64,000 nucleotides of DNA, taken from Halorubrum sp. GN11_10-6_MGM (GTDB lineage Archaea; Halobacteriota; Halobacteria; Halobacteriales; Haloferacaceae). The translations under genes and the position numbers were made by a program. The first letter of the stretch is position 1. Each line of letters starts with the position of its first letter. Of the stretch, positions 1-56,623 are shown one piece after another. Below the pieces are notes generated by a model. It made no database searches. It was not told the DNA's origin and was given only the letters and a program-made list of their open reading frames with translations. The DNA lies in contig NZ_SGUC01000015.1 in NCBI RefSeq assembly GCF_005435165.1, forward strand, positions 1-64,000, in the 5' to 3' direction.

Positions 1-130
1 GTCAGATCTTGAAACGTATCGAGAACTGGTCTGTTCGATCTTTCACGACTACGCCGATCGGATAAGCTTCGCAAAGTCATGGATTGATCGCTTCTTATCT
101 ATTCAAAAGTTATGACTATCACTAAAGAGC

Positions 131-300
131 GCGAACCGCGAGGCTGGGGAGGCGTGAGGTGCTGTGCGGAGCGGTGCGGGGTGGGGTTCAAAGGGGCAGC
201 CGCGATGCCGGCGCAGGGGACGTAAGCACCGCAGCGAGCAACGCGAGCGAGGAGCGCAACGAGCGTGCGCCGGCATCGCGGCTGGGGCTTTGGAGGTGTT
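131..300. repeat. Structured dispersed repeat, copy A (5'-shortened)
   Basis: This copy shares blocks with copies at 17736-17994 and 54499-54742. Reading the plus strand, it has the block GAGGCTGGGGAGG followed by GAGGTGCTGTGCGG, then a TTCAAAGGGG block. A perfect 19-bp inverted repeat follows (197-215 with 266-284) around a 51-nt loop, and then GGGGCTTTGG..GTGTT. The upstream hairpins of the other two copies are missing. A TATA-like TTTATAA at 325-331 would drive minus-strand transcription starting near 300. The gene on that side is polC, whose minus-strand 3' end lies at 441. The rest of 1-440 holds no convincing gene: the ORFs there are shadows of the repeat. Confidence 0.75.
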
Positions 301-440
301 CCTCGAATATCCAGCTTCGATTATTTATAAGCGAGCAGGTGGGGTGTCAGCGGCGTTCGTCGTATCGATCGGACACGAACTGCCGACGGCACCAATCACC
401 ACAGACGGATATACACAAAACGTCTTATAAACCCGATCTG

Positions 441-3400
441 TTACATGAAGTCCGCGATGCCGGACTGCTTGTTGGTGTCGTCCTCGAAGATCGATTCGAG
501 CGACCCCTCTAACACTTTCAGTCGCTGTTTCGTGTAGGGCCGACAGTCGAACCGCTCGGCCACCTCGATGGCGGTGTCGACGTACTTGCTCACCGAGCCC
601 TCGTGGACGGTGAGGTTCACGCGGCCGCCGCACTCGCGGCACTCGCCCGTCAGGGGCATCCGGCGGTACTTCTCGCCGCAGTCGAGACAGCGCGTCTCCT
701 GCCGCGAGAACGCGCGGAGGTTCCCGATGATGTCCGGCAGGAAGTGGTACTCGATCACGCGCTCGGCGACGTCCGTCTCGTCGACCGCGCGCAGCTTCCG
801 GGCCAGCTCCAGCTGCGCGTCCATCTTCTCCATCATGTCGCCGAGCGTCTTGTACGCCGACAGGTCCGGCCCCATCGCGATGTTCGTCGTGTCGTGGGTG
901 TGATCGAATCCGTGGTACTCGTCGTCCGTGCCGAGCGTGTCCTCGCCGATCTGGATCAGCTCCTCGACTTCCTCCGGATCGGCCAGCTCCCGCGACGCCT
1001 CGTACAGCTCCAGCGGATACTCGCGCACGATGTCGACGTTGTGCGCCTCGTCGTCGATCTCCGAGGGGTCGATCCGCGAGGACATGACGAGCGGCGCGTC
1101 CATCCGCCCGCCGCGCTGGTCCGGCAGAAATTCCTTCGAGAAGTTGAGAAGTCCGTCCATGAGGAGCATTACACAATCCTCGTCGCCGTCACATTGCTTA
1201 GATGATATATCATTTGAGATTAATGAATGAGTTCCCTCCACGGAAAGACAGTAGACATGCTGGCAGTCGGATTCAATTAGTTCGATTTGTGAGATTTCGT
1301 CTAAATAGAAGACATCGGATCCACCATCAAACACACGTGATCCCTGAGTGTTGTAATTTGAAATACTATTTTCGAGTTGTGTCTGCTTGCGAGTTAGATG
1401 AATGTCAACCTGTTCAGAAAATCGAACGGCGTCTACAGACGAAACCGTAATTTCGTAGGATTGAGCCATTAGCGTCTCATCGTCATCATCGTAGAACTCT
1501 GGGAATCTATCGCGTAGCAGCGTTCTGTCCGGCTCTCTCACCCTCGCTTTGATTCCGATTCGTGTTAGTAATGCTATTAGATCCGTTTTGAGTTCCGTAC
1601 TAATTGTTGTCGCACGTACTCCAATACCGTTGGATTCAACAGATCCATCGCCACTAAAATACCCTGAGAGATATGCGGAGATGATCTCGTCGGATGCGTC
1701 GAATATGGGGCTCGGAACTCGTTTTGTGTCGGCAGAGATCCCAGCGTCAAGTACCGTGTCAAAGAGAATCCGGACTAGTCGACCGGAAACGGTGACTTTA
1801 GCGTGATTTTCTTCGTAGGGATCCACGCCGAACTCCTCAACAAGGGTATCGAGGAAGAACTGACGGGCTTCTGTCTCGGTTCCACAGATTGTCGTTTGGT
1901 GGATTATTCCCTTTGGAGTCTGTTGCTCACGGGTGAATCCCTCTGCCGCGTAGTACCCGAGTAGAGTGGCAACTGATTCGTTTATTTCGAGGTACCGATC
2001 AATCTCCGTTCGGTCGCGTTTGATTCCGAGAGAAGCATCGTTGGGTACGAACTCAAGGAGATCATCGACCGAGTCGAAGCACTGCTGAAGGTACGCAACC
2101 GGGAAGCTTTCTCGATAGAGATAATTGCTTAGCGTCTTCTTGTTCGTCTCAAATATTTCAGTCATACTCTGGAGCGGATAAAATGGGCCGTCCCACGCGT
2201 CAGCAAAGGTACTCTCAAACAGATCGTAGAGGCGTTCTTTCTGTAATCCTTTTATCATTAAGCGGTCGTTCGGCACTTCGTCAACCGAAATGAACTCTTT
2301 GAGGAGATCGAACTGCTTCGTCCCATATCGTACATTGTCCTCAATTGAATGGGGAGTTACAAGCCGATCAGTATCAGACAACTCCCGTGCTTCTTTTTTA
2401 CTCATCTTATCCTGTTCAGAATTATAGACGTGAACCTCGTGATCTGGGGTAATGGTGAGAGATCGACCAGATCGAGTATGGATCTTCACCATGTGATCGG
2501 GAGCGGGATGTTTGCTGACTGCCTCGATCGGCCGAGAAACCTGTTTTCCGTCCGCTGTCAATGATGGAACTGACAGCTCTCCGTCGACTCCCTCCAACTC
2601 GCCGATTGCGGTCCCGAAGTCGTCGAACTCGACATCCGACTGCTCGAGGTACGTCTCGACGAAGTCGTCGATTTCGTCGTATCTCAATTGACCGGTCTCG
2701 TCCTCGTACCAGATTTTCGTCTCCGGGTGGAAACAGTTCCGCCGTTTCGCGGCGTGAAAGTACGGATGCGCGTATCCCACGGCGGCCGAGGTGAAACCTA
2801 CCACTCTCCCGACAGTTGCCGCGCTCGTGTGGGGGGCCATCCCGAAGACGAGCTCGCCGACGAGGTCGTCGCGCTCGTTCACCTCGTAGAAGCGGTCGAG
2901 CCCGTAGAACTGTTCGAGCAGGTCGTCGACGAAGTCCGCGGTCTTGAGCATGTGCTCGGCGGCGCCGTCGGAGAGCACGATGTCCTGAACGCGGAGCTCG
3001 ATCACCTGGTCGTCGTGGCGGAGGGGCTCGCCGTCGACGTCTGTCTCGTAGCCGAGTTCGCGGAAGTGGTCCGCGGTGACGTCGAGCTCCTCCGGCTTGA
3101 CCGCGGTGACCGGGAGGTCGGTCATGTCGTAGCGGACCGTGCCGTCCTTGAACGACGTGACGCCGTTCTTCGCGCGGAGGACCCCCTTCTCGATCGGCTC
3201 CGGCGTCTTGTTCCGCGAGGTGAGCCCCTGGACCCCTTTGAGGATCTCGAACGCCGACTCGCGCTCGCCAACCGTCTCCAGCGCGGAGCGGTACGCGTCG
3301 TTGACGTCGACCTCCTGGTAGGTCGCGGCCGTCACCTCCCACTCGCAGTTCGGGCACTCGACGCGGCCGGCCTCGTCGGGCGTACAGACGGTGCCGCAGT

Positions 3401-5546
3401 CGCCGCACTCGTAGTGCGGCTCCGTGTGCGTCTCGCAGTCGGGGCACAGGGCGGCGTAGGTGTGCTCACCGCAGTCGGGACAGACGCGGTCGGAGACCTC
3501 CAACTCGTGGCGTCCCCGCCGCCCGGTGTCGTCCATGACGTTCGCGGCCTCGGCCACGTCGCGCTGGGGACCGCCGGCCTCGTTGATCGGGAAGAGGGTG
3601 TGGACCGCCGGCGAGAGGTCGCGGCTCTCCGACTTCTCCGGGCGCCCCATCCGGTTGCCGATCCGGGTCGGGGCGCGCTCGCGGACCTCGAAGGGCGCGA
3701 CCTCGTTGACGGCGCGGACCGCGTTCTCGCCGTCGGCGTACTCGCGGGCCGCGGTCGAGAGGTCCGCCGAGTCCCACTCCTTCCGGAGCCCGTCGTCGAC
3801 GCCGAGCGACCGCGCGAGCGGGCGCCACGTCGGGATCCGGAGCGCGTCGGGCGTCGCCGCGTGTTCGATCAAAAGCGACTCCAGCGCGTCCCGGACCGGC
3901 TCGGTGCGCTCGATCGCGAGGACGCCCGCGACGATCTCGCCCCCGGCGACCGCGTCGGCGAGCGCCTCGAACGCCTCGACCGAGACGTCGTGCCAGAGGT
4001 ACGTGTACTCGGGGTGGAGCGGGCAGTCGTACTCGCGCGCCCACGCGAGCGCCTGGTCGACGTCCGGATGTTCGAGGTCGACGTGGGGGTCGTCCCCCAT
4101 GGCCTGAACGTCGGCGCCGGCGGCCTCGAACTCCTGGACCCACCACTCGGGGGCGTAGGAGGCGGGCGCGAGCGGGTGGTTGTTCTCGACGAACTCCCCG
4201 TAGTTGACGAGGTACTCGCCCAGATCGAGCACCTTCTCGACCCCGTTTCGGAGCTCCTTCGCCTCCTCCGGGTCGTCGATCCGGCGGACCTCGCCGTTGG
4301 CGAGCCGGACCGTCGGGCCCTCAATGGAGTCGACCGGGACGACGCCGTGGGCCTTCCCCGGCCGCTCGGTCTTGATCTGCGTCCCGGCCGCGAGGAAGTC
4401 GTCGACGATGTGCATCGTCGCCGGGTGGACGCCGCCGGTCGCGAACCCGTGGTTGCGCGCGCGACCGTATCGGAGGCGGAACCCGCCGGCCTCGCTCGGG
4501 TGGGTGAACACGGGGCGGCCCGCGATGAGGTCCCGGAGGAACTTCTGCGAGGGCTCCGCGCGCGGCGGCCCCGCGGCCTCGTCGTCGGTCGGGCCGTCGG
4601 TCTCGGACGCCCCGTCGTCCGACTCGCCGTCGCCCCCCTCACCGTCGCCGTTCGCTGCGTCGGTCGCTTCGGCCTCCGCCCCGTCGCCGTCGCCGGCGCC
4701 GTCCTTCCCGATCGTCCCGTCGATGAGGTCCTGGAGCCACGGCCAGTCGACCTCGTCCAGATCGCGGGTGTACCGCTGGATCTTCGGGGCCTTCAGCGCG
4801 ATCCCCTCGGCGGCGACGAGGCACATTCCCCCGCGGGCCGAGTTCGTGTCGACGCGTTCGAGGTCGCGGAACCCCGAGACCTCCTCGTCGCTCGTCGCCT
4901 CCCCGTCTAACATTACGGGGATGTGCTTCGCGATGAACTTCGACTCCTTGTCCTTCGGCGTGTACTGGAGCCCGGTCTCCTTGTCGTAGAGGGCGATCTC
5001 CTCGGCGTAGCGCTCGACCTCGACGTCTCGGGGCTTGTACTCGTCGACGTCGAGCAGCGACCGGGCGTAGTCGGCGACGAGCACCGACAGCGCCTGCGCG
5101 GTCCCGCCCGCCGAGCGGATCGGTCCGGCGTAGTAGACGTTGACGAACTCGGTGCCGTCGTCGTTCTCCAGCAGCTCGACGCGGTCGATCCCCTCGATCG
5201 GGGCGGCGACGACCCCCTCCGTGAGCAGCGCGACGGCGGTCCGGACCGCCCCCTCGATCTTCCCCTCGCGGGAGTCGTAATCGCCGACGTTGCCGTCGAC
5301 GAAGTCGGTGACGAGCTCCAGCGCCGCCTCTTCTCGCGACATCTCGCCCTCCAGATCGCGGACGCGCTCCGCGACGCCGTCGATGCCGAGGATGTTCTCG
5401 ACGCGGTCGGCCATGTCGCGGGCGACCGGGATCTCGATCTCCGGCTCCGGGTCTCGGCCCTGCTCTTTGGCCGCCTCGGCGACGTCCCACGCCTCGTCGA
5501 GACGCTCCTCGATCCGCGCGAAGTAGCGCTCGTCGTCCGGTCTCAT
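441..5546 (-). CDS. polC: DNA polymerase II (family D) large subunit DP2, with intein
   Basis: Catalytic subunit of the archaeal D-family replicative DNA polymerase, which pairs with the small exonuclease subunit DP1 (not in this window). The 1701-codon frame is about 1187 residues of polymerase plus a 514-residue intein (residues 938-1451). An acidic low-complexity linker occupies roughly residues 282-335. Cys-rich zinc-ribbon motifs lie near residue 687 (CPDCGEHTYAALCPDC) and at the C-terminus (CLDCGEK...CRECGG). The intein interrupts KRRN/CDGDEDCVMLLMDG, the most conserved active-site segment of DP2. The start was chosen at the ATG giving MRPDDERYFARIEERL, which matches the expected family N-terminus. 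A PPC-domain gene lies 40 nt upstream on the same strand. The host part is G+C-rich, unlike the intein. Confidence 0.97.
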   Translation of the reverse strand: MRPDDERYFARIEERLDEAWDVAEAAKEQGRDPEPEIEIPVARDMADRVENILGIDGVAERVRDLEGEMSREEAALELVTDFVDGNVGDYDSREGKIEGAVRTAVALLTEGVVAAPIEGIDRVELLENDDGTEFVNVYYAGPIRSAGGTAQALSVLVADYARSLLDVDEYKPRDVEVERYAEEIALYDKETGLQYTPKDKESKFIAKHIPVMLDGEATSDEEVSGFRDLERVDTNSARGGMCLVAAEGIALKAPKIQRYTRDLDEVDWPWLQDLIDGTIGKDGAGDGDGAEAEATDAANGDGEGGDGESDDGASETDGPTDDEAAGPPRAEPSQKFLRDLIAGRPVFTHPSEAGGFRLRYGRARNHGFATGGVHPATMHIVDDFLAAGTQIKTERPGKAHGVVPVDSIEGPTVRLANGEVRRIDDPEEAKELRNGVEKVLDLGEYLVNYGEFVENNHPLAPASYAPEWWVQEFEAAGADVQAMGDDPHVDLEHPDVDQALAWAREYDCPLHPEYTYLWHDVSVEAFEALADAVAGGEIVAGVLAIERTEPVRDALESLLIEHAATPDALRIPTWRPLARSLGVDDGLRKEWDSADLSTAAREYADGENAVRAVNEVAPFEVRERAPTRIGNRMGRPEKSESRDLSPAVHTLFPINEAGGPQRDVAEAANVMDDTGRRGRHELEVSDRVCPDCGEHTYAALCPDCETHTEPHYECGDCGTVCTPDEAGRVECPNCEWEVTAATYQEVDVNDAYRSALETVGERESAFEILKGVQGLTSRNKTPEPIEKGVLRAKNGVTSFKDGTVRYDMTDLPVTAVKPEELDVTADHFRELGYETDVDGEPLRHDDQVIELRVQDIVLSDGAAEHMLKTADFVDDLLEQFYGLDRFYEVNERDDLVGELVFGMAPHTSAATVGRVVGFTSAAVGYAHPYFHAAKRRNCFHPETKIWYEDETGQLRYDEIDDFVETYLEQSDVEFDDFGTAIGELEGVDGELSVPSLTADGKQVSRPIEAVSKHPAPDHMVKIHTRSGRSLTITPDHEVHVYNSEQDKMSKKEARELSDTDRLVTPHSIEDNVRYGTKQFDLLKEFISVDEVPNDRLMIKGLQKERLYDLFESTFADAWDGPFYPLQSMTEIFETNKKTLSNYLYRESFPVAYLQQCFDSVDDLLEFVPNDASLGIKRDRTEIDRYLEINESVATLLGYYAAEGFTREQQTPKGIIHQTTICGTETEARQFFLDTLVEEFGVDPYEENHAKVTVSGRLVRILFDTVLDAGISADTKRVPSPIFDASDEIISAYLSGYFSGDGSVESNGIGVRATTISTELKTDLIALLTRIGIKARVREPDRTLLRDRFPEFYDDDDETLMAQSYEITVSSVDAVRFSEQVDIHLTRKQTQLENSISNYNTQGSRVFDGGSDVFYLDEISQIELIESDCQHVYCLSVEGTHSLISNDISSKQCDGDEDCVMLLMDGLLNFSKEFLPDQRGGRMDAPLVMSSRIDPSEIDDEAHNVDIVREYPLELYEASRELADPEEVEELIQIGEDTLGTDDEYHGFDHTHDTTNIAMGPDLSAYKTLGDMMEKMDAQLELARKLRAVDETDVAERVIEYHFLPDIIGNLRAFSRQETRCLDCGEKYRRMPLTGECRECGGRVNLTVHEGSVSKYVDTAIEVAERFDCRPYTKQRLKVLEGSLESIFEDDTNKQSGIADFM
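1194..2735 (-). other. Intein in polC with LAGLIDADG endonuclease, C-terminal Gln
   Basis: In-frame protein-splicing element of 514 residues. It begins at Cys (CFHPETKIWYEDETG) and ends at ISSKQ, followed by +1 Cys of the extein (CDGDEDC). Block B has a TxxH motif (TITPDHEV). Two dodecapeptide endonuclease motifs are visible (LLGYYAAEG and LSGYFSGDG). The last residue is Gln instead of Asn and the penultimate is Lys instead of the usual His. C-terminal Gln has been reported for the Pyrococcus abyssi PolII intein at the equivalent site, where it still splices. Base composition differs sharply from the host: 1201-1260 has 23 G/C of 60, while 2821-2880 just outside has 43 of 60. This suggests recent arrival by homing. 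Confidence 0.95.
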
Positions 5547-17735: not shown

Positions 17736-17994
17736 CGGTGGCGCGCGCCTCCGAGCGCCCGAGAGGGCGCGAGGAGCGCCGCGCGAGGGAGTCGCGAGCG
17801 AACGGCGACCGAAGGGAGCCCGAGCGAGCGACGAGGCTGGGGAGGTGCGAGGTGCTGTGCGGTCGCAGTGGGACTCGAAGGGGCAGTCGCGAGGGCGAAG
17901 CACGGCAAAGCAAGGACCGCAGGAGCGAGCGAAGCGAGCGACGAGGACCGAAGCGAGCCGCGCGAGCCGTCGCGACTGGGGCTTCGGGAGTGTT
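17736..17994. repeat. Structured dispersed repeat, copy B
   Basis: Full-length copy, read on the plus strand. Hairpin P1 is CTCC-GA-GCGCCC (749-760 of 17 kb), loop GAGA, GGGCGC-GA-GGAG, with facing GA steps in the stem. Hairpin P2 has loop GACCGAAGGGA closed by GGC/GCC. Then come the conserved GAGGCTGGGGAGG and GAGGTGCTGTGCGG blocks, GGGACTCGAAGGGG, and stem P3 (17884-17896 with 17966-17978; 9 bp, one mismatch, 3 bp), then GGGGCTTCGGGAGTGTT. TTTATAAG at 18010-18017 is a minus-strand TATA-like box. It lies between the rnz 3' end (18115) and the rpa promoter. The rest of 17461-18114 has no gene. Confidence 0.75.
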
Positions 17995-18114
17995 CGTGTC
18001 GAGCGGGTGTTTATAAGTAGAAACAGTATCGTACAGCCGAGCGACTGGGACTTCGGCGGTTTTGGCCGTGAAACCGGTCGTCGGACATCGGTTCGCCTCT
18101 GCGTAGTTGTCATC

Positions 18115-54498: not shown

Positions 54499-54742
54499 CG
54501 GTGGCGCGTGCCTGCGAGGCCGCCCCGCGGCCGAGCAGCACGCGCGAGGGAGTCGGCGGCGACCGACGGGAGCCGCCGACGAGGCTGGGGAGGCGTGAGG
54601 TGCGGTTGCGGTGCTGTGCGGGGCGGGACTCAAAGGGGCAGCCGGGCGGCGGGCGCAGGTGACGCAAGCACCGCAGGGAGTGGAGCGACCGAGGAGCGCA
54701 GCGAGCGTGCGCCCGCCGCCCGGCTGGGGCTTTGACGCTGTT
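54499..54742. repeat. Structured dispersed repeat, copy C
   Basis: Full copy, plus strand. P1 pairs GCGCGTG (54504-54510) with CACGCGC (54539-54545), CTGC-GA-GGCCGC (54512-54523) with GCGGCC-GA-GCAG (54527-54538), loop CCC. P2 pairs GTCGGCGGC with GCCGCCGAC, loop GACCGACGGGA. Then come the GAGGCTGGGGAGG and GGTGCTGTGCGG blocks, GGGACTCAAAGGGG, and P3, a perfect 19-bp repeat (54639-54657 with 54708-54726), then GGGGCTTTG. Compared with copy A, both P3 arms differ in the same middle positions, keeping pairing. It fills the 349-nt gap between tRNA-Arg and the antiporter 3' end; no gene is present. Confidence 0.78.
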
Positions 54743-54766
54743 CGCCGTCGACCCGCAAGCAACTGT

Positions 54767-56623
54767 TTAGTCGTGCGGGTGGAAGCGCTCCATCGCGCGA
54801 CGGACCGCGTCGGTGTCGCCGATGAACGTCACGCGGTCGCCGATTTCGAGGACGCTGTCCGCCGAGGGGACGTGGTTCTCCCCGTCGCGGCTCACGACGG
54901 CGACGAAGGTGCCGTCGGGGATCTGCGCGTTGAGGTCGCGGATGGTCTTGCCCGCGACCGCCGCCGAGGTCACCTCGATCTCCTGAACGTCGTGGCTGTC
55001 GCCGAGTTCGTTCATCCAGTGGGTGAGCGCGGGCCGCTCGATCTCGTCGTCGATGGCGACCGCGGTCGCCGTCGTGGCGTCGATGCCGGTGACGCCGATG
55101 CTGTCGAAGGCGTCGACGTTGTCCGGATCGTTCACCCGCGAGTACACCGACTCGACGTCGAACTTGGTGATAGCGAGCTGGCACGCGAGAAGGTTGATGT
55201 CGTCGTCGGCCGTCGTCGTGATGAATCGCTTCGCGTCGTCGATGCGGGCCTCGCGAAGCGTCTCCGTGTCGCTGCCGTCGCCCTCGTAGACGGTGAACCC
55301 GTCCGAGCGCGCGCGCTCGACCACCTCCGGGTCCGACTCGACGACCACGACGTACTCGCCCCTGTTCTCCAGTCGCGTGGCGAGCGCCTGACCGATCCGG
55401 CCCCCGCCGATGATTATCGTGCGCATTGGTGACACTCCGAGGTACTCTCCGATCTGCCGCGCGAGCCCCGCCTCGACGAGGACCGTCGCGAAGATGACCG
55501 CGAACACCGTACCGACGAGCAGCTCGCCGGCCGCGACGCTGCCCGCCAGCTCCAGTTCGATGGCGAACAGCGTCGCCACGCTCGCCGGGATGATCCCCCG
55601 CGGCCCGACGCTCGCGATGAACAGCCGCTCGGGGCGCGTGAACCGCTCGACGCCGACGGTCGCGAGGAACGCCCCCAGCGGCCGGAGGACGAGCATGACG
55701 ACGGCGACGATCCCGATCACGCCGAGGCCGAGCCCGGCGATCGCCTCGACGTCGATCAGCGCGGCCAGCGAGATGAACACGAAGGATAGGACGATCGTGG
55801 TGGTGTTCTGCGCGAACCGCTCGATCTCCTCGCGGTTGTCGAGCCCGAGGTTCCCGAGGAGGATGCCGCTCGTCGCGGCCGCCGCGATTCCGGCCTCCGC
55901 GGCGACGGCCTCCGCGGCGGCGAACGACCCGATCGCGGCCGCGAGCACGAGGAACTGCGACGCCTGAACGTCGCGTTCGGGGACGAGGTCGCTGTCCAGA
56001 ACGAAGTAGATGGTGACGGTGGCGAGCAGCCCCGCCGCGACGCCGACGCCGAACCGCTGGAGGAACGAGACCACCGTCGCGGGGACGCCGAGGTCGTCGA
56101 GCAGCAGCGTCTCGAAGATCACGACCGCGACGATCGCGGCCGTCACGTCGTTGACGATCCCCTCCGTCTCCAGCGCGGTCGCGACGTGGTCCCGCACCCG
56201 GACCACGTCGAGGATCGGCGTGATGACCGTCGGGCCGGTCGCCACTAGCAGCGCGCCGACCAGCAGCGCGATCTCCCACGTGCCGTCCGTGAACGCCCGG
56301 ACCGCCGCGGCGGTGCCGAGGAACATCACGACCGCGCTGACGGTCACGAGCCGGAGCGAGGCCGTCGACGCGCGCCGGATCCGGTCGAGGCGGAGCGCGA
56401 ACGCCCCCTCGAAGACGATGATCGCGACGCTGAGCCCGACGATGATCTCCAGTCCGTCGCCGAACGTCTCCAGCGTGACCAGCCCCAGCAGTTCGGGCCC
56501 CAACACAACCCCGATCGCGAGGTAGAAGATGACGCTCGGCACCCGGAACCGGTGAGCGAGCAGCTGGACCGCGAGCCCCGACACGAGTATCGCGGCGATC
56601 ACCGGCAGCAGGCTGCTGGACAC
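54767..56623 (-). CDS. Cation/H+ antiporter (CPA family) with TrkA domains
   Basis: Membrane protein of 618 residues. About 12 hydrophobic segments fill residues 5-395 with typical CPA sequence (VATGPTVITPILDVVR; ALETEGIVNDVTAAIVAVV, with the conserved Asp of the ND motif). Residues about 400-535 are a TrkA-N (RCK_N) domain (TIIIGGGRIGQALATRLENRG) and the last 80 a TrkA-C domain. It exchanges Na+ or K+ for H+ across the cytoplasmic membrane with nucleotide gating, relevant to high-salt life. Its 3' end abuts repeat copy C. Confidence 0.92.
   Translation of the reverse strand: MSSSLLPVIAAILVSGLAVQLLAHRFRVPSVIFYLAIGVVLGPELLGLVTLETFGDGLEIIVGLSVAIIVFEGAFALRLDRIRRASTASLRLVTVSAVVMFLGTAAAVRAFTDGTWEIALLVGALLVATGPTVITPILDVVRVRDHVATALETEGIVNDVTAAIVAVVIFETLLLDDLGVPATVVSFLQRFGVGVAAGLLATVTIYFVLDSDLVPERDVQASQFLVLAAAIGSFAAAEAVAAEAGIAAAATSGILLGNLGLDNREEIERFAQNTTTIVLSFVFISLAALIDVEAIAGLGLGVIGIVAVVMLVLRPLGAFLATVGVERFTRPERLFIASVGPRGIIPASVATLFAIELELAGSVAAGELLVGTVFAVIFATVLVEAGLARQIGEYLGVSPMRTIIIGGGRIGQALATRLENRGEYVVVVESDPEVVERARSDGFTVYEGDGSDTETLREARIDDAKRFITTTADDDINLLACQLAITKFDVESVYSRVNDPDNVDAFDSIGVTGIDATTATAVAIDDEIERPALTHWMNELGDSHDVQEIEVTSAAVAGKTIRDLNAQIPDGTFVAVVSRDGENHVPSADSVLEIGDRVTFIGDTDAVRRAMERFHPHD

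Follow-up and report, generated by a model that had tools for sequence, protein, structure and literature searches.

A TATA-like box at the right end of a dispersed, folded repeat of Halorubrum: a candidate promoter-like site

Three copies of a dispersed repeat

The window, a 64-kb stretch of Halorubrum DNA, contains three copies (A, B and C) of one dispersed repeat of approximately 257 bp (Table 1). Copies were located with an nhmmer profile of 257 model positions, built from 146 full-length copies. The left part of copy A is replaced by a multicopy repeat at window positions 1-128. This 128-bp flank matches six places in the genome, five of them at or beside a contig end, and probably represents the 3' terminus of an insertion sequence by which copy A was truncated; a 37-aa reading frame within the flank had no Pfam match. 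Gene 441-5546 (1701 aa), near copy A, was judged by eye to be a putative DNA polymerase II large subunit with an intein. The gene adjoining copy C (54767-56623, 618 aa) carries the Pfam domains Na_H_Exchanger, TrkA_N and TrkA_C. A search of the whole window against Rfam at gathering score matched three tRNAs and no element, and copy C searched by itself up to E=1 matched nothing.

An earlier note on this DNA had placed TATA-like boxes on the minus strand beside all three copies, 19-27 nt from a conserved edge. TTTATAA is indeed found at copies A and B. Copy C retains just TTTA, and the 'CTAAACA' proposed as its box contains the TAA stop codon of the neighbouring gene, which makes C a weaker case than A and B. 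The proposed spacing holds for A and C, where the box lies 23 nt from the model end (300 and 54742), and fails for B, where the distance is 15 nt (17994); these values point to two registers instead of one. The observation is therefore real in part, with two registers and one degenerate case. TTTATAA occurs three times in the window, every time in an element flank, against a mean of 0.06 over 100 dinucleotide shuffles, none of which reached three.

Table 1. Coordinates of the element copies, right-edge motifs and TATA-like boxes in the window
Feature	Position	Strand	Method or match
Copy A of element, 5'-truncated (model 81-257 of 257)	127..300	+	nhmmer
Right-edge motif CTGGGGCTTTGGAGGTGTTC, copy A	282..301	+	0 mismatches
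TATA-like box TTTATAA, copy A; +24 register (TTATAA at 325); minus strand TTATAAAT	324..330		
Second TTTATAA, right flank of A, between element and stop codon of gene 441-5546	425..431	-	
Copy B of element, full length (model 4-257)	17739..17994	+	nhmmer
Right-edge motif, copy B	17976..17995	+	1 mismatch
TATA-like box TTTATAA, copy B; +16 register (TTATAA at 18011); minus strand CTTATAAAC	18010..18016		
Further right-edge unit of copy B, degenerate, offset by 69 bp from 17976	18045..18064	+	3 mismatches
Copy C of element, full length (model 4-257)	54502..54742	+	nhmmer
Right-edge motif, copy C	54724..54743	+	2 mismatches
Degenerate box TTTA, copy C, +24 register; overlaps neighbour's TAA stop (54767-54769, minus)	54766..54769		

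Distribution of the repeat family

Merged profile matches gave 48 elements in 0.836 Mb of this genome (G000), from stretches picked partly for containing copies, and 54 in 1.2 Mb of a second genome, G015. Extrapolation from these densities puts the copy number at approximately 140-190 per genome. Copy A, used as the query against this genome, returned at least 48 matches (40 of the 173 candidates scored). With copy C as the query, 32 of 39 genomes matched, including this genome and all 22 further Halorubrum genomes. The exact element core was found on at least 117 contigs; of the 80 listed, 68 were named Halorubrum, and the other genera among those listed include Haloparvum, Halorussus, Halosimplex and Halobellus. 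A scan of viral contigs for the exact core gave no match. Among the named plasmid matches to a Halosimplex segment, many are an acyl-CoA dehydrogenase gene and not the element. Two sub-threshold Rfam matches, both in locus L075, were the only ones obtained for four loci from other genera.

In G015, 6 of 60 element matches overlap a predicted reading frame by at least 0.3 and the remainder are largely intergenic; their orientations relative to genes (22, 18, 11 and 9) show no clear preference. A literature search of titles and abstract starts, with subscription papers outside its scope, found no description of the element. The name 'CURT-1', considered for a Haloferax RNA family, was absent from the papers that the search listed and was dropped.

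Fold and folding strand

RNAalifold predicted long hairpins in the element. Pairing was possible in 92% of alignment cells, compared with 81% when one side was shuffled and 30-44% when the sides were slid, and 48 of 75 pairs had changed on both sides, compared with 13-24 when slid. Covarying hairpins adjoin both model ends, which gives the element the near-terminal palindromes used as a criterion for the PATE repeats discussed below. Even if its boxes prove to be silent, it is a folded element with extensive two-sided pair changes, and one for which we found neither an Rfam match nor a description.

Under symmetric scoring, G.T outnumbered A.C mismatches in the plus-strand stems by 51:15 in hairpin HP3 (164 arms, p=1e-5, with the copies related) and by 16:7 in HP2 (99 arms, p=0.09 alone). 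This excess makes the plus strand, and not the minus strand, look like the folding strand, and agrees with the counter-argument that the earlier note had raised against its own proposal, namely that the opposite strand is favoured as the RNA. The raw count of 752 G.T to 181 A.C was set aside, as it was inflated by three weak helices that gave 517 of the G.T; in the same count one aligned helix, the misaligned HP2, shows the reverse, with 15 G.T to 49 A.C. Identical HP2 arm sequences recur across copies and species beside different neighbours, a gene-conversion-like pattern that was noted by eye only.

Position, frequency and conservation of the box

The hexamer TTATAA lies at +24 in 41 and at +16 in 15 of 177 right edges, where approximately 0.006 would be expected at any single offset. 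Twelve further cases fall at other offsets below 50, and 121 of the 177 edges have no TTATAA in either register. Removal of flanks at least 75% identical leaves 36 of the 56 box-bearing flanks. These counts omit copies that did not reach the model edge in question or had too little flanking sequence, and identical sequences were entered once. Additional peaks of TTATAA at +81 and +138 are the mark of a 57-bp tandem unit. Right-end units are arranged in tandem, with lengths of 57 or 69 bp, plus box-less ones of approximately 50 bp (for example window 17976-18064).

To judge conservation, units were picked by the head of the spacer and not by the box. In the 57-type units (n=66), conservation of the box columns was 0.70, compared with 0.53 before and 0.58 after the box. 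In the 69-type units (n=32) it was 0.75-0.91, compared with 0.44-0.69 before and 0.41-0.56 after, and TTATAA itself was present in only 15 of the 32 flanks. Conservation of this kind among dispersed copies can equally stem from homogenisation.

The hexamer is concentrated around the element. In this genome (0.836 Mb), 49 of 76 occurrences lie inside a copy or no more than 300 bp away, an area that makes up 4.7% of the sequence; in G015 (1.2 Mb) the figures are 24 of 60 and 3.8%. The frequency of TTATAA within 45 nt of the right edge was 14/35 in the analysed part of this genome versus 8/44 in G015, and looser AT patterns identified a right box in 63 of 145 copies. The median copy score was 177.9 for 61 copies with a box and 176.1 for 83 copies without (p=0.44).

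At the left edges, TTATAA was found at -16/-15 in 32 of 184 cases and from -23 to -9 in 56; a further AT box lies near -47. These left boxes near -16 and -47, which the earlier note did not report, occur in some copies and follow broad registers, not fixed ones. Copies B and C have no left-side AT box, and the left end of copy A is missing. Left and right boxes co-occur (145 copies: both in 37, neither in 66, right only in 26, left only in 16), with an odds ratio of 5.9 and p=1.8e-6, a p value made optimistic by the relatedness of the copies. The suggestion of an inverted arrangement of left and right boxes was withdrawn; the consensus gives it no support, and inverted and direct arrangements are indistinguishable because the core is palindromic.

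Orthologous loci and other genera

Of the 48 elements located in this genome, 11 have both flanks in the compared G015 sequence, and in 10 of these an element lies between the flanks. Among the 10 shared intervals, two span as much as 2.8 and 9.3 kb, and in one of this pair the flank orientation is inconsistent. Of 10 G015 copies with both flanks present in G022, 7 have an empty site there. At the locus of copy A, compared across 29 genomes, the element is in the plus orientation in G000, G007, G014, G003, G019, G011, G039 and partly G021; it is reversed in G013 and G018, and no element was found in the other 19. The presence of both orientations in the spacer next to gene 441-5546 suggests repeated gain.

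The boxes also vary between orthologues, and in some orthologous pairs one box is degraded. At locus B (28 genomes), TTATAA is present in the first spacer in G000, G044, G043, G042, G021, G040 and G014, while G020, G016 and G015 have the copy and no box in that spacer. At locus C (26 genomes), degraded outer right-end units retain TTTATAA-like boxes, and in G039 boxes persist where just a left-end remnant survives. The G044 contig starts 456 bp upstream of this point, and its corresponding box has changed to TTTATCAA. In G042, one copy (el4) has boxes on both sides that are missing from G022, G015 and G000, all of which have no copy there. For a second G042 copy (el3), G022 and G000 have neither element nor box, and G015 has a remnant with an AT box. 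Since that remnant may indicate loss, only el4 was counted as lineage-specific.

Tandem right ends were also found in Halosimplex, Halorussus and Haloparvum loci, where the right-end units that could be read contain no TTATAA. The Halosimplex unit has a 57-bp period (five starts, four perfect periods) and no box, so TATA symmetry does not account for the period. AT stretches upstream of the left end occur in a Halorussus copy (ATATAAATA, L097) and in a locus from a MAG (TATTTATAAA, L068), and the left AT box may therefore reach beyond Halorubrum.

The box as a putative promoter

Archaeal promoters of the BRE/TATA type have a TATA-like core approximately 26-31 nt before the start, and the upstream BRE gives direction. 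In 408 upstream regions, the AT cores of genes begin at about -31/-30. On a promoter profile the scores of the box regions, on either strand, exceed the median for gene promoters and stay below the upper quartile, a result to be read with the caveats that any TTATAA scores well and that a wider stretch was scanned. The full profile favored the plus strand for the right box in 66% of 65 cases. A score limited to the flanks was higher on the minus strand in 63% of the 41 boxes of the +24 class and behaved oppositely in the +16 class; tested on 27 promoters whose direction is known, this score was right for 13 and thus has no power. Given this calibration, assignment of direction from the promoter profile was dropped. 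A sigma-70 scan was also set aside as not applicable to archaea.

We consider the box a conserved, element-associated AT site just outside the right end that may bind TBP and act in a promoter-like manner, possibly in both directions. We put the probability of this reading at roughly 0.45, that is, somewhat short of an even chance. TBP binding and promoter-like action are inferred here, and a promoter function is plausible. The box itself lies in the spacer outside the right end, in two fixed registers and in a subset of copies, and recurs in the 57-bp tandem right-end units. TTATAA being palindromic, transcription may start on one side or on both. In the 57-bp units the box is midway between the edge motifs, such that starts approximately 28-31 nt away would reach the GGTGTTC/GAACACC edge either way. 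The plus strand looks like the folded one and most right edges are box-less, so the folded element does not require the box as its promoter. The left box at -16 would start an RNA within the first hairpin, which we take to make it a poor promoter for the folded element.

A far-reaching extension would have the repeat form well over 100 movable, folded plus-strand RNA or ssDNA cassettes in Halorubrum genomes, many of them with AT boxes beyond one end or both. Their right-end units, each with a symmetric TATA halfway between edge motifs spaced 57 bp apart, would be bidirectional promoter arrays that spread start sites across the genome; we regard this as improbable.

Alternative explanations

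The strongest competitor to a promoter-like site is a DNA site by which the element moves or is maintained, at which an unknown recombinase would recognize the DNA or open its strands and transcription would play no part. Boxes on both sides that co-occur and that are missing along with the copy at G042 el4 would fit such a site, as would the gain and loss of copies between species and the two orientations in one spacer at locus A. Identity between left and right flanks, however, did not exceed that of shuffled pairs and thus gave no signal like a target duplication, with junctions that are unclean at this divergence. No transposase was tied to the element: 30 loci derived from 39 Y1-transposase matches (99 kb, several genera) hold a single element match, and G002, G004 and G005 have no Y1_Tnp match yet gave 243, 241 and 281 first-look element candidates. 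On balance, we consider a DNA site unlikely, at about half the weight of the promoter-like reading.

The earlier note had read the box as possibly the element's own minus-strand promoter, producing an RNA from the AACAC edge through the element and away from the neighbouring gene. Part of this interpretation is supported. The box does have a fixed offset from the conserved edge, is TBP-compatible and is conserved above the spacer, and the +24 spacing would set a minus-strand start near that edge, given the position of gene cores. The proposed transcript fares less well. More than half of the right edges have no TTATAA in register, the flank score cannot read direction, and some orthologous copies do not have the hexamer, nor do the right ends that were readable in Halosimplex, Halorussus and Haloparvum. 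The minus strand is also the weaker folding strand, with G.T to A.C at 67 to 22 in the symmetric arms. A minus-strand element RNA is consequently not favoured, and we hold this promoter to be improbable, more so than a DNA site.

Equally improbable in our estimate is a box with no function, an AT patch carried along and homogenised in a successful subfamily. Such a patch would account for copy scores that are the same with and without the box, for box frequencies that vary by species and for orthologous copies that differ. It sits less well with box columns that stand above the neighbouring spacer columns in both unit types, and with TTTATAA that persists beside degraded units at locus C, including G039; in G044 the box at this place is altered.

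That the box belongs to the neighbouring genes, as a promoter or terminator, is very improbable: right boxes did face gene ends more often than gene starts in G000 and G015 (22/50 vs 1/25, p=0.0004) and after addition of G022 and G042 (29/62 vs 5/30, p=0.006), but the association was not replicated at other-species loci (29/53 vs 14/34, p=0.27; 11 loci of other genera and one G015 locus excluded, L141-L177 kept with names unchecked) and was dropped, the left box has no such orientation bias, and the register is tied to the element and not to the gene, which refutes this explanation in general.

If the boxes fire, the repeat would place start sites next to a large number of genes in a common hypersaline archaeon, and part of archaeal antisense RNA could be explained in this way.

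Comparison with known systems

Haloarchaeal gene promoters consist of a BRE and a TATA box. The box described here resembles them in having a TBP-compatible AT core approximately 30 nt from a conserved edge, and differs in being a candidate site predicted from sequence.

Among mobile or repetitive elements, an IS200/605 parentage was considered and was not found at the TnpA loci examined: 30 TnpA loci scanned for the element gave one match, located at a contig end about 1 kb away from TnpA. PATEs are IS605-related, with ends in common with IS605-type transposons as one of their criteria, and no such link was found for the present element at these loci. Comparison of left and right flanks with shuffled pairs gave no excess identity of the kind left by target duplication, for an element whose model ends may differ from its true ends. 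A likeness exists to the PATEs, MITEs and SMRs of Haloquadratum, which are transposase-free, high-copy repeats (PMC3119063). Some of these have near-terminal palindromes and no target duplication, and some lie at corresponding places in two strains (PMC3119063). High copy number, a haloarchaeal host, the lack of a transposase and near-terminal palindromes are common to both, while the available part of that source mentions neither tandem right-end units nor AT boxes for the Haloquadratum repeats (PMC3119063).

In terms of promoter activity, there are precedents in the literature for the reading proposed here, although we found no description of the element itself. In Pyrococcus furiosus, a single TATA box is described as driving transcription in both directions, from start sites separated by 49-50 bp (PMC6640164). 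A near-symmetric TATA box with possible two-sided starts would be a likeness to those promoters, which are, from what is accessible of that report, gene promoters with measured start sites and a BRE, whereas the present box is a prediction from DNA sequence (PMC6640164). The intergenic repeats of halovirus HF2, which has a Halorubrum host, fall into two classes, I (56-58 bp) and II (29 bp); promoter activity was seen in 9 of 9 tested, and for class II it was bidirectional (PMC8707807). Compared by description, as given in the accessible portion of the source, the HF2 repeats differ from the present element in being viral, short and tied to viral genes, with no folded 257-bp part, and resemble it as repeats that bear an AT box (PMC8707807).
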